Assembly: GCA_017560425.1 (NCBI GenBank)
Contig: JAFZEX010000006.1
Location: 1 to 42,049 of the forward strand
DNA length: 42,049 nucleotides
Direction of reading: 5' to 3'
Source of the DNA: Alistipes sp.
Lineage (GTDB): Bacteria > Bacteroidota > Bacteroidia > Bacteroidales > Rikenellaceae
The position numbers and the translations under genes are program-made. Below the pieces are notes generated by a model. The model was not told the DNA's origin and did not search any database. It saw only the letters and a list, made by a program, of their open reading frames with translations. Positions 33,987 through 39,056 of this stretch are shown here, in pieces (the stretch's first letter is position 1; the number at the start of each line of letters is the position of its first letter).

Positions 33987-35702
33987 ATGGATCTAAAACG
34001 ACTTGCTAAATACGTCGAGTACACCGTTCACCGCCGTCTGCTGAGCTTTGCGCCTGATGCCAGCCGTGTGCACAATCTCTTTGTGCATGGCTATCGTCAG
34101 ATGTACTACACCATTCGTAGTCGCAAGCTCCACCGCACCTTTGTGGATAGTGCCGCCCTCACGCTACAAACGCTCTTTGCAACAATCCCGCTCCTCGCCT
34201 TTGTGCTTATCATTCTCAGCCGCTTGGGTGCGTGGCAGCCTGTCGAGGCAAGCCTGCGTAGTGGCTTTAGCGAGTGGGGCAATTTGATCGACTCGTTGCT
34301 CACAGCAGCAAATAGTGCAGCCCAGAACCTACCTAACGGCATCTTTATGTTCATCGGTCTTGGCTCGATGATGTGGTTCATATTCATCGTCTTTCGTGGG
34401 GCTGAGGGGGCGTTCAACCATATATGGGGTGTGCGTGCCAAGCGAGGGTTTATAAAGCGCTATATCTCTTATACACTGATTGTTATCTTAGTTCCTATAC
34501 TTTGGGGCTTTGCAACAACATTCACGATGGATGCCTTTCTGTGGTCAGGCCTCTCGAACGATATTAGCCGAGGCGTGTCACGCCTTATCTCTATCGCCAT
34601 CACCGCCTTTAGCACGGCGCTGCTATATAAGTTTCTGCCACACGCCTATGTGCGTTGGCGCTATGCCCTCGGCATAGGTACTCTTGTGGGCGTGGTGCTC
34701 ATGTTTTGGCAGTGGGGCTACGTATATATCCAGGCATACATGACCGCCTACAACGCCATCTATGGTAGTTTTGCTGCTATTCCGTTGTTTATCATCTGGT
34801 TGCAGGTGTCGTGGAACATCATCTTGTTTGGCTGCGAGCTCTGTTGCGTATGGCAAAATGCCGACTACTACGAGACTATCGACGCTCGTAGGTTGGGCAT
34901 GAAGAGGCTACGTGGCACACAGCCTGTGAGGGTTGTTGTAGTGGGCTCGGGCAATGTTGCCGAGGCCTTTGCCTTGGCGCTGAGTGGTAATAAGAGTGTC
35001 GTTCTTAGGCAGATATATGCCCGCAACGAGGAGCGTGGTCGCTACCTCGCAACGCTAACAAATAGCCATTGGACCAACAAGCCTGAGGCGCTTGCCGAGG
35101 CAGACATATATATAATCTCGGTTAGCGATCGTGCTGTCGAGCAGGTGGCGCACTCTCTGAGCTTTAAGCCAGGCTCTATTGTGGTGCACACGGCGGGTAG
35201 TGTGCCTCTTGCGGTGCTTCCAAATGAGGGTGTCAGCCGAGGTATATTGTATGCCTTTCAGAGCTTTACGGCGGGTCGTCAGATGTCGCTTAGCAAGGTG
35301 CCTATCTTCATTGAGGCGGAGGACGAGGCCACGAAGGAGCGCCTTAAGGAGTTTGCGCACTTCATCTCGGAGCGTGTTGCCGAGGCTGATAGCGAGCGCC
35401 GTAGGTCGATACACCTTGCCGGAGTCTTTGTTAATAACTTTACCAACCAGCTATATGCCCTCGGTGGCGATGTTATGCTTGAGGCAGGTCTTAGCTTCGA
35501 CATGCTCAAGCCCCTTATCGAGGAGACTGCCTCTAAGGCGGTGGCGAGTGCCGACCCACGTAGTGTGCAGACAGGCCCTGCTGTGCGTGGCGATAGAGCG
35601 GTGTGCGACAAGCACTTAGAGATGTTGGCAGATGACGAGCGAATGCAGAAAATATATAAAGATATAACTGAGAGTATATGGGAAACTTCAAAGAAGATAT
35701 AG
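33987..35702 (+). CDS. Fusion of a YihY/BrkB-type membrane protein with a DUF2520 Rossmann protein
   Basis: One uninterrupted 571-residue frame joins two families that are usually separate genes. Residues 1 to about 290 are YihY-like (former RNase BN): a helix-rich part with six hydrophobic segments and motifs ALTLQTLFATIPLLAF, GAEGAFNHIWG and YGSFAAIPLFIIWLQVSW. After a linker (about 291-313), residues 314-571 form a Rossmann domain with VVVVGSGNVAEAF (Gly320, Gly322, Asn323) and a helical DUF2520 dimerisation domain (VFVNNFTNQLYALGGDVM). DUF2520 proteins bind NAD(P) and are usually beside the HAD gene that follows here; the two genes overlap by 25 bases. A membrane-tethered oxidoreductase is inference. 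Confidence 0.88.
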   Translation: MDLKRLAKYVEYTVHRRLLSFAPDASRVHNLFVHGYRQMYYTIRSRKLHRTFVDSAALTLQTLFATIPLLAFVLIILSRLGAWQPVEASLRSGFSEWGNLIDSLLTAANSAAQNLPNGIFMFIGLGSMMWFIFIVFRGAEGAFNHIWGVRAKRGFIKRYISYTLIVILVPILWGFATTFTMDAFLWSGLSNDISRGVSRLISIAITAFSTALLYKFLPHAYVRWRYALGIGTLVGVVLMFWQWGYVYIQAYMTAYNAIYGSFAAIPLFIIWLQVSWNIILFGCELCCVWQNADYYETIDARRLGMKRLRGTQPVRVVVVGSGNVAEAFALALSGNKSVVLRQIYARNEERGRYLATLTNSHWTNKPEALAEADIYIISVSDRAVEQVAHSLSFKPGSIVVHTAGSVPLAVLPNEGVSRGILYAFQSFTAGRQMSLSKVPIFIEAEDEATKERLKEFAHFISERVAEADSERRRSIHLAGVFVNNFTNQLYALGGDVMLEAGLSFDMLKPLIEETASKAVASADPRSVQTGPAVRGDRAVCDKHLEMLADDERMQKIYKDITESIWETSKKI

Positions 35703-36217
35703 CGCAGGTCGAGGCCATTGTCCTCGATGTTGATGGTGTGATGACCGACGGCGGTATCATCCCCACGCCCGAGGGCGACTTTATCCGTCGCTACAACGCT
35801 AAAGATGGCTATGCCATAGCCTCAGCCTTGCGTGAGGGCATGAAGATATGTGTTATCTCGGGTGGTCGTGGTCGCATGTTGGAGAATAGGCTCACGATGC
35901 TCGGCGTTACGAAGATGTACCTTAACTGCATGGATAAGGTGGCGGCGATGCACGAGTTTTTCGAGGAGCATGGCATTGATGCTCAGAATGTTATCTACAT
36001 GGGTGACGACATTCCCGACTTAGAGTGTATGCGCCTTGTGGGTATCCCTGTGTGTCCTGCTGATGCCTGCATGGAGGTTGTCGAGGCATCACGCTACGTG
36101 TCCGAGTTTAATGGCGGTCATGGCGCTGTGCGTGATATCGTCGAGCAGGTTATGCGAGCACAAAACAAATGGGCGAAAAACCTAAAGGGAGTCTTAGGCT
36201 TGCCAGCGTCACATTAG
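35678..36217 (+). CDS. HAD phosphatase, KdsC-like (3-deoxy-octulosonate 8-phosphate phosphatase type)
   Basis: A 179-residue capless HAD phosphatase. Motif I is LDVDGVMTDG (Asp17 nucleophile, Asp19 acid/base), motif II is VISGG, and motif III-IV are Lys in NCMDKVAA and MGDDIPD. This short C0 form is that of KdsC/YrbI, which makes free Kdo for lipopolysaccharide; a related sugar phosphatase role is possible. Its start overlaps the fusion gene by 25 bases. The TIR gene follows after 16 bases. Confidence 0.9.
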   Translation: MGNFKEDIAQVEAIVLDVDGVMTDGGIIPTPEGDFIRRYNAKDGYAIASALREGMKICVISGGRGRMLENRLTMLGVTKMYLNCMDKVAAMHEFFEEHGIDAQNVIYMGDDIPDLECMRLVGIPVCPADACMEVVEASRYVSEFNGGHGAVRDIVEQVMRAQNKWAKNLKGVLGLPASH

Positions 36218-36233
36218 TAACTATTTGCCCAAT

Positions 36234-37316
36234 ATGAACAGCAAGATATATGACATATTTATAAGCTACTCATCTCATGATAAGGAGCGGGTGATGGAGC
36301 TATGCAACTATATCGAGCAACATGACCTACGCTGTTTTGTTGCACATCGTGACATTCCTCGTGGCGTGGTGTGGGCAAGGTCTATCGTTGAGGCTATTGA
36401 GAGCAGTCGCATGATGCTTGTTGTATTCTCCAAGTCGTTCAACGAGTCGGAGCAGGTAGATCGTGAGATTGAGCTTGCGTGCGAGGCGAAGATGCCGATA
36501 TTGTCGGTAAGGCTTAGCGGGGACCAATATACGGGTGCTAAGCGTTACTATCTGAATAATATAAATTGGATAGATGCCTTTCCAGAGCCATGCCGTGTTT
36601 ATGCCGATGTGATGAGTAGCATATTGAGCCTTCTTGGTGATGTTCGTAATAACAATATTAAGGCTCCAGCCATAGCCCCAGAGGTGGCTAAGCAGAGCAG
36701 ACGACGTTGGTCGCCTCGCATCATCATGTTTATTGCTCTATTGTTGGCATTTTGTCTTGGTGCGCTATATTGGACATTCGATAGGTCGGAGGCTCGTCAG
36801 GGCGCAGAGCCATGCTATAAGGTTGGCGACTACTATAACGAGAATAACAAGGAGGGCGTGGTATTCCAGGTGTGGGACGATGGTCGTCATGGCAAGATCG
36901 TGAGCTTAGACGAGGCGGAGCTAAAGTGGTGTAGCGACGAGCAGTATCGCAAAAAGGTTGCCGTAGATGCCTCTAACCGAACAGATGGCAAGGCAAATAC
37001 CGATAGGGTTGTCTATCATGCAGATGCAACGCAATATCCCGCCTTTAGTTGGTGCAGAGCCAAGGGTGGCGACTGGTATCTGCCCGCTATTGACGAGTTG
37101 GTGCGCTTTACCCTTGACAAGGAGGCAAGAGGGGTTATCAATCTGACACTTAAGGCTAAGGGATTTAGAGAGTTAGATGGTTGGTATTGGTCATCAACCG
37201 ACTATGCTGACTACGAGCCCGATGCCTGTGCTTGGTATGTGTGGATAGCGAGTAACGAGACGCGTGGAGCTGATAAGAATAAGGAGGCGTATGTTAGAGC
37301 AATAGCCACATTCTAG
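36234..37316 (+). CDS. TIR-domain protein with one transmembrane helix and a C-terminal DUF1566-like domain
   Basis: ATG 36234 gives 360 residues; the TTG 9 bases earlier is less likely. Residues 1-135 are a TIR domain: YDIFISYSSHDKERV, then RCFVAHRDIPRGVVWARSIVEAIESS, and FSKSFNESEQVDREIELA, where Glu78 aligns with the NAD-cleaving glutamate of active bacterial and plant TIRs. A basic stretch (SRRRWSPR) precedes a transmembrane helix at about 163-182. From about 192 onward there is a DUF1566-like domain (CYKVGDYYNENNKEG, AFSWCRAKGGDWYLPAIDEL, WYWSSTDYADYE, VRAIATF). With positive-inside topology, TIR is in the cytoplasm and DUF1566 in the periplasm, like a receptor. NADase activity is inference from the motif. 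Confidence 0.9.
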   Translation: MNSKIYDIFISYSSHDKERVMELCNYIEQHDLRCFVAHRDIPRGVVWARSIVEAIESSRMMLVVFSKSFNESEQVDREIELACEAKMPILSVRLSGDQYTGAKRYYLNNINWIDAFPEPCRVYADVMSSILSLLGDVRNNNIKAPAIAPEVAKQSRRRWSPRIIMFIALLLAFCLGALYWTFDRSEARQGAEPCYKVGDYYNENNKEGVVFQVWDDGRHGKIVSLDEAELKWCSDEQYRKKVAVDASNRTDGKANTDRVVYHADATQYPAFSWCRAKGGDWYLPAIDELVRFTLDKEARGVINLTLKAKGFRELDGWYWSSTDYADYEPDACAWYVWIASNETRGADKNKEAYVRAIATF

Positions 37317-37439: not shown

Positions 37440-38272
37440 CTTGTCAGCGGTGAGTCAGGTTCATGTGACATCACCATGTAGAATAGTCTATCGACCAGCC
37501 CGGGGAAGAACTTCTTGAGAAGGTGTGTCATGCGGCCCTCCCACTCCATGAGGCATAGGCGCTTACGACGCTTAATGCCACGTGCTACGAGGTGCGCCAC
37601 ACGCTCTGCGGTCATCATCTTTGCCTCGTTGCGGGGTGTTGCGCCCTGCACGGTGCCATCGGCGGTGAGTGCCGAGAAGCGCACGTTCGAGGCGGTGAAG
37701 CCAGGGCATGCCGTCATCACATGAACACCCTTTTTGAGGTTCTCAATGCGTATGGTGTCGAGAAATCCCGTCATGGCATATTTCGATGCCGAGTAGCCCG
37801 TGCGTGCGGGTAGACCGTGAATGCCCGCTACCGACGATATGCCGACAAGCGAGCCTCGTGACTGCTGTAAGTGGGGTAGTGCATACTTGGTGCAATTTAC
37901 TGTGCCCCAAAAGTTTACGTTCATGAGGCGATGAAGCACGCTAAGGTCGCAATCATCGAACAGAGCACGCATCGACAAGCCAGCATTGCATATCATTATA
38001 TCTATTCTGCCGAAACGCTCGATGGCAACCTCTATGAGGTGCTTGCACTCCTCCTCTTTTGTTACGTCGCACACGCAGTATGCCACCTTTCCGCCCTGAG
38101 CCTCAATCTCTTGAGCTATGCGTACAAGCTCGTCGCCACGGCGGGCAGCCATAACCACATTTGCCCCCATCTTGGCATACTCACGTGCCATAGCCTCGCC
38201 AATGCCCGACGAAGCGCCTGTTATAACGATAACCTTGTCGCTCAAAAATTTTCTCATACTTTCCTTACTCAA
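37436..38272 (-). CDS. Short-chain dehydrogenase/reductase
   Basis: A 278-residue classical SDR with a Rossmann cofactor site TGASSGIG (18-25), the NAG motif (CNAG, 96-98) and the catalytic Ser146/147, Tyr160 and Lys164 in SSVAGIHGLPARTGYSASKYAM. The Arg pair after the second strand (AARRGDEL) suggests NADP(H). Substrate unknown. The C-terminus has a hydrophobic and basic stretch (RRKRLCLMEWEGRM, HLLKKFFPGLVDRLFYMV) that may contact membrane. It overlaps the MBL gene by eight bases and its stop lies in the intergenic repeat. Confidence 0.9.
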   Translation of the reverse strand: MSKESMRKFLSDKVIVITGASSGIGEAMAREYAKMGANVVMAARRGDELVRIAQEIEAQGGKVAYCVCDVTKEEECKHLIEVAIERFGRIDIMICNAGLSMRALFDDCDLSVLHRLMNVNFWGTVNCTKYALPHLQQSRGSLVGISSVAGIHGLPARTGYSASKYAMTGFLDTIRIENLKKGVHVMTACPGFTASNVRFSALTADGTVQGATPRNEAKMMTAERVAHLVARGIKRRKRLCLMEWEGRMTHLLKKFFPGLVDRLFYMVMSHEPDSPLTR

Positions 38273-39056
38273 TCTCTACCGTCAGCCCATCGTAGGCAAA
38301 CGCCACACCCTCCTTCTCGAGCCATTGTTGCGCCACGGCGTGAAGACCTATCTCGTGTGACATATGTGTCAAAAAGGCTTGCTTTGGAGCAACCCTCTCT
38401 ACGACCTCTAAAGCCTGAGCCACCGAGAAGTGTGAGCTATGCTTGGTCCAGCGCAAGGCGTTGATAACCAGGTATTCTACGCCTACTAACTTGCTTAACT
38501 CCTCCTCGCTAATAGCGTCAAAGTCGGTGAGGTAGGCGAGCTTGCCGAGGCGGTAGCCAAAGACCGTGAAGCGGTCGGAGTGGCGACCCTCGATAGGTGT
38601 AATCTCGATGCCCTTAACTTTAAAACTGCTATCTCGAGCGATGGTGTGTAGCTCTATAACGGGCACACCTCGGTATTTATTTTGTGCAAAGGCGTAGTCG
38701 AAGTCCTTTGTTATGGTGGCTATTGTTGGCTCGTTGCCGAAGATGTGCATCGAGTGTATCGTTGGAAAGTCCACAAAGTTGAAGGCACGCACATCGTCGA
38801 TGCCCGCAGTGTGGTCTTTGTGCTGGTGCGTGAGGAGTATGGCATCGAGGTGGCGCACGCCCTCACGCAGCATCTGCTGGCGAAAGTCGGGGCCCGCATC
38901 GATGACTATGCGCACGCCCTCGCACTCGACCATTGCCGAGGTGCGCAGACGCTTATCACGACTATCTGTCGATTGACAAACGGCACACTCACAGCCTATT
39001 ACGGGCACACCTTGCGATGTTCCTGTGCCCAAGAATGTTAGCTTCATCGTTGCCAT
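38265..39056 (-). CDS. MBL-fold phosphodiesterase, PhnP-like
   Basis: A 263-residue MBL-fold hydrolase. It begins LTFLGTGTSQGVPVIGCECAVC, the PhnP-type opening with the Cys-rich loop (Cys22, Cys24, Cys27) for a structural zinc. The catalytic metal site is THQHKDH (His77, His79, Asp81, His82). PhnP opens cyclic ribose phosphates in phosphonate breakdown, but no phosphonate genes are near, so a more general cyclic phosphodiester role is likely. It is between a small membrane-protein gene and the SDR gene. Confidence 0.9.
   Translation of the reverse strand: MATMKLTFLGTGTSQGVPVIGCECAVCQSTDSRDKRLRTSAMVECEGVRIVIDAGPDFRQQMLREGVRHLDAILLTHQHKDHTAGIDDVRAFNFVDFPTIHSMHIFGNEPTIATITKDFDYAFAQNKYRGVPVIELHTIARDSSFKVKGIEITPIEGRHSDRFTVFGYRLGKLAYLTDFDAISEEELSKLVGVEYLVINALRWTKHSSHFSVAQALEVVERVAPKQAFLTHMSHEIGLHAVAQQWLEKEGVAFAYDGLTVEIE

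Follow-up and report, generated by a model that had tools for sequence, protein, structure and literature searches.

C-type-lectin-like folds are known targets of diversity-generating retroelements (DGRs). In cyanobacteria, the accessible text of PMC7517822 describes DGR targets with C-type-lectin (CLec) heads on kinases and, less often, on TIR-like domains, with remote copies. As far as that text goes, the genes analysed here resemble the cyanobacterial CLec proteins in their C-terminal lectin module on signalling domains, Ser/Thr kinases being the commonest, in the dispersal of the targets in the genome and in the reported TIR-like domains. They differ in that they belong to gut bacteria of the Alistipes group, that single-pass membrane TIRs and kinases are common among them, that the matching template is phage-borne, that 24 of the 35 target-bearing genomes are without a reverse transcriptase (RT) match, and that the gene at the centre of this study appears to be fixed. 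DGR-targeted antigen sensors with TIR-bearing targets are described for Thiohalocapsa and other multicellular bacteria in the portion of PMC10907252 at hand, and related conflict systems in that of PMC7159879. The likeness to the Thiohalocapsa sensors lies in the CLec heads on conflict effectors, including TIR and CHAT; those systems, as far as the same portion covers them, are mostly multi-gene NTPase systems with many targets predicted to be cytoplasmic, whereas the receptor described below is a single polypeptide, and none of the eight scanned neighbours was recognised as an NTPase partner. The Hankyphage of Bacteroides (PMC6199706, in part) resembles the phage cassette described below, as a temperate Bacteroidales phage with an RT, a small Avd-like ORF, a template and a C-type-lectin target, but its target is a phage protein and the text at hand mentions no host receptor target. 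The main text of the global DGR survey (PMC8144416), in the form accessible to us, contains neither 'TIR' nor 'kinase'. In a literature search covering titles and the beginnings of abstracts among the matches listed (most subscription papers and all preprints lay outside it), we found no membrane TIR receptors as Bacteroidales DGR targets and no phage DGR writing host receptors.

Two further comparisons concern the TIR domain. With Thoeris ThsB and other defence TIRs the protein shares the TIR domain, a conserved Glu and a score above the cut-off of the Pfam ThsB_TIR model (27.8 bits against 21.2), but no ThsA-like NAD effector was found among the eight neighbouring proteins and the NCBIfam defence models remain far below cut-off (23–33 bits against 220–600), and membership of Thoeris was rejected on these grounds. 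With animal Toll-like receptors it shares a predicted layout of ligand domain outside, one helix and TIR inside; yet the domain order is reversed, the ligand domain is a lectin-like module and there are no leucine-rich repeats, and the likeness is an analogy only.

Domain architecture of the window protein

The gene lies in the window, by which we mean the whole stretch of 42,049 nucleotides of Alistipes sp. that was analysed, and encodes a protein of 360 residues (Table 1). A preliminary description made from the DNA letters had proposed the order TIR domain, basic stretch, one transmembrane helix and DUF1566-like domain, which the open reading frame, the TIR_2 profile (PF13676, E = 1e-19, 71.6 bits, cut-off 28) and the helix confirmed. 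The helix is the sole hydrophobic segment of the protein, with a mean hydropathy of 2.35 in the simple Kyte–Doolittle scan by which helices were called, and the orthologues in genomes G118 and G042 have one hydrophobic segment each, at residues 165–183. The DUF1566-like assignment stood with a reservation: Lcl_C (PF07603), which we take to be the former DUF1566, matches at E = 2.5e-7, but its score (31.4 bits for the whole protein, 33.3 for the module alone) falls just below the Pfam cut-off of 34.9. The same family is matched at E ≤ 0.01 by 55 of 56 modules. Searched against the PDB, the module returned just two hits, both weak (4eps and 8q4e), and a search of phage records with the window protein gave one match, covering the TIR only.

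Table 1. Features of the receptor gene and its upstream neighbour in the window
Feature	Position	Strand	Basis
KdsC-like HAD hydrolase	35678..36217	+	Hydrolase_3 2.3e-7; 16 bases upstream of TIR gene; name KdsC by eye
TIR - helix - Lcl_C-like receptor gene, 360 aa	36234..37316	+	ATG at 36234, stop ends 37316; orthologues in synteny
TIR domain, aa 8-116	36255..36581	+	PF13676 TIR_2 1e-19
Glu78 codon	36465..36467	+	alignment column Glu in 102/106 distinct TIR rows
Basic stretch KQSRRRWSPR, aa 153-162, predicted cytoplasmic flank of helix	36690..36719	+	sequence
Single hydrophobic helix, aa 163-181	36720..36776	+	Kyte-Doolittle scan
C-terminal Lcl_C / C-type-lectin-like module, aa 194-360	36813..37313	+	PF07603 2.5e-7; module HMM
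Segment equivalent to paralogues' DGR variable region, aa 331-360	37224..37313	+	not DGR-shaped here; strong purifying selection

Glu78 stands at what we take to be the position of the catalytic Glu of NAD-cleaving TIRs, as had been proposed, and it is conserved in homologues: when the TIRs of the fetched loci are aligned (106 distinct rows), 102 rows have Glu in this column and the other 4 have a gap. The same Glu also occurs in non-enzymatic TIRs and is insufficient by itself to define the NAD-cleaving class. The nearest solved TIRs by sequence profile are the animal signalling TIRs TRR-2, MyD88 and TLR6, with weaker matches to plant resistance TIRs, and near Glu78 the window TIR has Gln74 at the position where the enzymatic TIR SARM1 presumably has Trp. 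The TIR might accordingly be a non-enzymatic scaffold that recruits partners on ligand binding, as animal Toll and MyD88 TIRs do, and the nearness to animal TIRs keeps weight on such a role. Against it stand a column that is Glu wherever a residue is present and the eight scanned neighbours, among which no partner TIR or effector was recognised, a result that favours a TIR acting by itself. We regard the scaffold role as unlikely and prefer a putative NAD-cleaving output.

Gene neighbourhood

The 16-base gap after the KdsC-like gene and the alignment with xerD and comEC, both part of the preliminary description, hold: the KdsC-like ORF ends at 36217, and the upstream genes on this strand include those for an XerD-type integrase and a ComEC-type protein. 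The term 'housekeeping operon' survives only in part. The TIR gene directly follows kdsC in the window, G118 and G042, but among 20 kdsC loci checked, out of 30 fetched, it follows kdsC at one (G118) and is absent at 19. Two of these 19 (L255 and L267) end 388 and 155 bases past kdsC and carry little information; the remaining 17 have varied genes or none downstream within the locus. Since G118 alone among the 20 has it, the TIR gene looks like an accessory at the operon end in a small clade and not like a conserved operon member.

Two other genes of the window were recorded in passing. A 571-aa ORF (33987–35702) fuses a BrkB/YihY-type membrane domain (residues 50–291) to an F420-oxidoreductase-like part (from residue 315) and DUF2520 (to residue 564), a fusion that is full length in G118 and G042 too. 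A metallo-beta-lactamase-fold protein (38265–39056) gives a weak match to the anti-Pycsar protein Apyc1 (23.7 bits, cut-off 50) and is probably an ordinary hydrolase.

A C-terminal module shared across the genus

Residues ~190–360 are, among the matches listed, far more widespread in the genus than the whole protein. In the fetched loci, which are the best-ranked module matches (60 regions and earlier ones) and no random sample, the module is carried by 87 distinct ORFs. Kinase motifs occur on 19 of them, 14 with a hydrophobic segment between kinase and module; the best NCBIfam match of one such protein is the PknB/Stk1 PASTA kinase model, below cut-off. The other carriers are TIRs of several kinds and proteins in which a signal-peptide-like start precedes the module alone, and signal-peptide-like starts with PEGA-like repeats (by eye) carry one to three modules. 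The TIR subfamily of the window protein is likewise joined to SEL1-type repeats or other C-terminal parts (by eye, among 80 relatives retained out of 308). By eye, it occurs on SEL1-repeat proteins of ~1300 residues (L050 in G109, L051 in G107 and others), on FISUMP-like domains and, in L170, before a methyltransferase-like part.

Over all fetched loci, TIR and module occur together in 30 distinct proteins, of which 15 have a helix joining the two domains and 15 do not; one of the 30 is truncated by the end of its contig, and the module match is partial in some. The module is thus not obligatorily periplasmic and probably works on either side of the membrane; that of the window protein is placed in the periplasm on the strength of its own helix and basic flank, which together predict the TIR inside and the module outside. 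The receptor-like architecture put forward in the preliminary description is supported by this helix and flank and by the occurrence of the same module behind signal-peptide-like starts and behind kinase plus helix, though it does not extend to the 15 proteins without a helix. Like these relatives, the window protein could have both domains in the cytoplasm and a hydrophobic segment that is never inserted. We consider this quite improbable, for the segment is strong, is flanked by basic residues and is kept in both orthologues despite the fast-evolving linker around it.

A phage-borne DGR cassette

The module has a fold that DGRs are known to target, which led us to examine 20 RT-bearing contigs, chosen from the RT matches in the genus. 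Six of the 20 contain a repeat pair with mismatches all or nearly all at one base type, as is seen between template and variable repeats: 16/16 in L120, 15/15 in L130 and 23/23 in L128, with further pairs in L116, L124 and L126. One 8.75-kb contig, G065:C16, carries in order a 384-aa target ending in the module, an Avd, a template repeat and an RT, which together make up a DGR cassette. The template repeat reads FCAWNVNMNNGNTNNNNKNNNNYVRAVSEF, and 17 of its 20 mismatches to the target are at template A. The Avd matches PF22296 at 2.2e-14 and scores 54.3 against a cut-off of 40 for Pfam bAvd, and 43.7, below the cut-off of 80, for NCBIfam. The NCBIfam matches of the RT are sub-threshold, the best being a group II intron RT, so the case for a DGR rests on the Avd and on the template/target pair. 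The contig is assigned to a phage because of a baseplate-hub match (phrog_4930, 1.4e-80); the RT matches phrog_1423 (1.4e-85). The PHROG of the target itself is of unknown function, and from its position we infer a tail fibre.

A template matching the G065 type was found in three of the 180 genus genomes. In G073 the RT protein and flank are identical to those of G065, the RT of G080 is 95% identical, and an IMG/VR contig (L245) has the same gene order, again with a target ending in the module. In G080 the template at the start of contig C63 (L243) also differs from the host genes at non-A bases, and the end of contig C42 (L280) holds a 33-base template fragment with a better fit to the genes of that genome; the two different templates at contig ends are perhaps two related prophages. 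A first template pattern also matched G057:C1, a candidate that was dropped since the sequence there is unlike a template; the reversed control of that pattern gave one match too (G118). A second template type, NAWNQNYNTSNPGNQNNNNKNNNNYVRAVRR, occurs in three other IMG/VR contigs (L244, L246 and L247): an ORF in the RT position lies downstream of it, a small ORF takes the Avd position, and L244 and L246 also have an upstream target (names by eye).

That the same module forms the C-terminus of a phage DGR target, and that module-only proteins with signal-peptide-like starts exist, could indicate a decoy or adhesin, that is, a phage-protein-like lectin occupying phage receptors or binding glycans, with the TIR secondary. 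The coupling to kinases and TIRs points instead to a signal output, and a module tethered in the periplasm would be unable to mask surface receptors, which makes a decoy or adhesin improbable compared with the signalling head that we favour.

Template imprint on host genes

Thirteen positions of the module are AAY in the template, and the imprint was scored as NNY, i.e. a third base C or T, at these variable codons. All of them are NNY in 59 of 99 modules (58 at 13/13, one at 12/12), against a background of 0.54 in the rest of the same modules. Compared with the 75 bases of the G065 template, the 59 modules have a mean of 15.4 mismatches at the 31 A and 4.7 at the 44 non-A bases (non-A median 3, range 2–18), and the other 40 have means of 17.3 and 18.9. 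This comparison is ungapped, so that genes with an indel score badly though all their codons fit; five of the 59 (L019, L029, L086, L091 and L098) have 10 to 18 non-A mismatches. We call such modules DGR-shaped, a term for a sequence pattern that is distinct from proof of present activity.

Three further features separate the two classes. The first concerns the third position of conserved codons, with modules split post hoc at no more than 6 versus 15 or more non-A mismatches: in the 56 DGR-shaped modules its most frequent base reaches 0.906 inside the variable region and 0.626 upstream of it, and in the 34 others 0.542 and 0.590. The motif TTAGG[CT]T lies within 40 bases past the stop in 42 of 54 DGR-shaped genes and in 5 of 29 other genes. 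Module pairs at least 85% alike upstream share 11% of their variable codons if DGR-shaped (10 pairs) and 86% if not (5 pairs, which are not independent, three coming from one genome pair and two being the window orthologues), with a split again set post hoc, at most 10 versus at least 15 non-A mismatches. In whole genomes, a pattern of the invariant template bases, with two mismatches allowed, gave 92 matches in 35 of the 180 genus genomes and none in any of the 180 with the reversed control. Across the order, a sample of 198 genomes, made up of the window's own genome and 197 from other genera, gave no match. The only match in G073 is the template itself, and those in G065 are the template and the phage target.

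The imprint is found on signalling proteins of both kinds: 17 of 19 kinase modules are at 13/13 NNY, as are 7 of 18 TIR-labelled modules, two of these with a helix (L005 and L042), and the TIR-like L073, also with a helix. Three proteins with a helix (L005, L042 and L073) and three without (L009, L013 and L110) are DGR variable proteins by this pattern, each at 13/13 NNY and with 2, 5, 3, 6, 6 and 3 non-A mismatches of 44, respectively, to a template from another genome. Within one genome, the modules of L073 (G062:C13, TIR-like) and of the kinase L083 (G062:C33) are 88% identical upstream of the variable part and share only 15% at their 13 variable codons, which suggests that heads have been swapped. 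Genome G031, 98% complete, carries template-phased ends at 14 places, six or more of which belong to kinase proteins, and has one RT match (a 289-aa frame); no template was found in the RT neighbourhood L112 of this genome. An identical 63-base variable end, among the few common to two genomes, occurs at G076:C74:1688 and G080:C42:3153.

We infer from these patterns that the binding face of most sampled members of the module family was written by a DGR with a phage-like template. The DGR-shaped host ends might also have arisen through gene transfer or gene conversion involving phage genes, or be the work of an unseen host DGR, with no writing in trans by a phage. The distribution of cassettes leaves room for this: the matching template is confined to the three genomes mentioned, and an RT match is present in 11 of the 35 genomes with template-phased ends compared with 50 of the 145 others, figures on which RT presence was rejected as a marker of target-bearing genomes. 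Nearly all genomes are draft assemblies, so that binning may have lost an RT or template that seems to be absent, or placed phage contigs in the wrong genome. G080 points the same way. Against its 33-base fragment the host genes mismatch at 7 to 12 of 12 A and, of 21 non-A bases, at 3 (TIR L216), 4 (L226), 4 (TIR L228), 9 (L220) and 17 (L224, probably due to an indel shift), whereas the phage target L231 mismatches at 7 A and 0 non-A bases; a further ORF of C42 (L233) mismatches at 6 A and 2 non-A bases. By this sequence comparison, the link between host genes and template is weaker within G080 than across genomes. Such origins would nevertheless have to account for third bases that keep to the phase of the template in one gene after another while the remainder of the module varies, and for amino acids at the variable codons that differ in nearly every gene, and we hold them somewhat unlikely. 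The cassette missing from most genomes with DGR-shaped ends could reflect phages that only visited, a loss that followed the writing, gene transfer or losses in binning.

The window copy and its orthologues

The window gene is at 6/13 NNY, the chance level (its G118 and G042 orthologues are at 7 and 7), and its mismatches to the G065 template number 17 at the 31 A and 22 at the 44 non-A bases, so that it is not a DGR variable protein. In its genome (G000; 1.84 Mb, 50 contigs, about 90% complete) no RT was found at E ≤ 0.001, against 61 of the 180 genus genomes with an RT match, and both template patterns were without a match there. The full-length orthologues, among the matches listed from the 180 genus genomes including the window's own, are those of G118 and G042, at 79% identity. 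Neighbouring proteins are 84–97% identical in G118 and 65–96% in G042, and the TIR gene about 78%. Across these three species residues 331–360, the equivalent of the variable region, are identical at 28, 29 and 29 of 30 positions in the three orthologue pairs, with synonymous change present and dN/dS of 0.017, 0.013 and 0.037; elsewhere dN/dS is 0.37–0.59 in linker plus helix and 0.12–0.14 in the TIR. This segment is the most conserved part of the window protein across the three species.

The window gene could itself be a live DGR target whose template lies beyond the assembled part of the genome: it belongs to the same module family, and L005 and L042, of the same architecture, are DGR-shaped. 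This is nonetheless highly improbable, and the candidate was rejected: besides the codon and mismatch counts, its Trp, Glu and Lys at variable positions are unreachable from AAY, the segment is conserved across species despite synonymous change, and its genome gave no RT or template match. By its sequence, the window module is a fixed member of the family, with a binding face that appears free of retroelement imprint.

In a tree of the module part upstream of the variable region, the three orthologues join a group of 44 members, 29 of them DGR-shaped (support 0.79), and the next nodes hold 45 members (support 0.73) and 49, with 30 DGR-shaped (support 0.97); here DGR-shaped means at most 10 and other more than 10 non-A mismatches, a split set post hoc. 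This nesting in a group mostly of DGR-shaped members suggests that the window copy derives from a DGR target and lost diversification, an order of events that midpoint rooting leaves unproved.

Proposed mechanism and significance

We hold it, on balance, probable that the window protein is a single-chain membrane TIR receptor, putatively NAD-cleaving, and a fixed member of an otherwise DGR-diversified module family. The chain would have its TIR in the cytoplasm, cross the membrane once through the helix and expose a ligand-binding, C-type-lectin-like module in the periplasm. A bound ligand would bring chains together or change their orientation, and the TIRs would then assemble and cleave NAD. 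Sensing would thus probably be periplasmic, the output NAD-cleaving and the specificity fixed. Genus-wide, the modules would act as interchangeable receptor heads on TIRs, Ser/Thr kinases and secreted proteins, and a DGR with a phage-like template would write the binding face of most sampled heads. The window module would probably recognise one constant ligand, because its binding face is without imprint and is the most conserved part of the protein.

More tentatively, and as a possibility that we would not yet call probable, Alistipes of the ruminant gut may hold an adaptive repertoire of TIR and kinase receptors that is rewritten in trans by a temperate-phage DGR, phage protein and host receptors being written from one template, with the window gene fixed by selection. 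The findings as a whole would give bacterial TIRs a receptor context that takes two testable forms, hypervariable and fixed, among the species of a single genus. The question raised is whether a phage retroelement edits the receptors of its host, and the fixed window copy may offer one constant ligand to look for.
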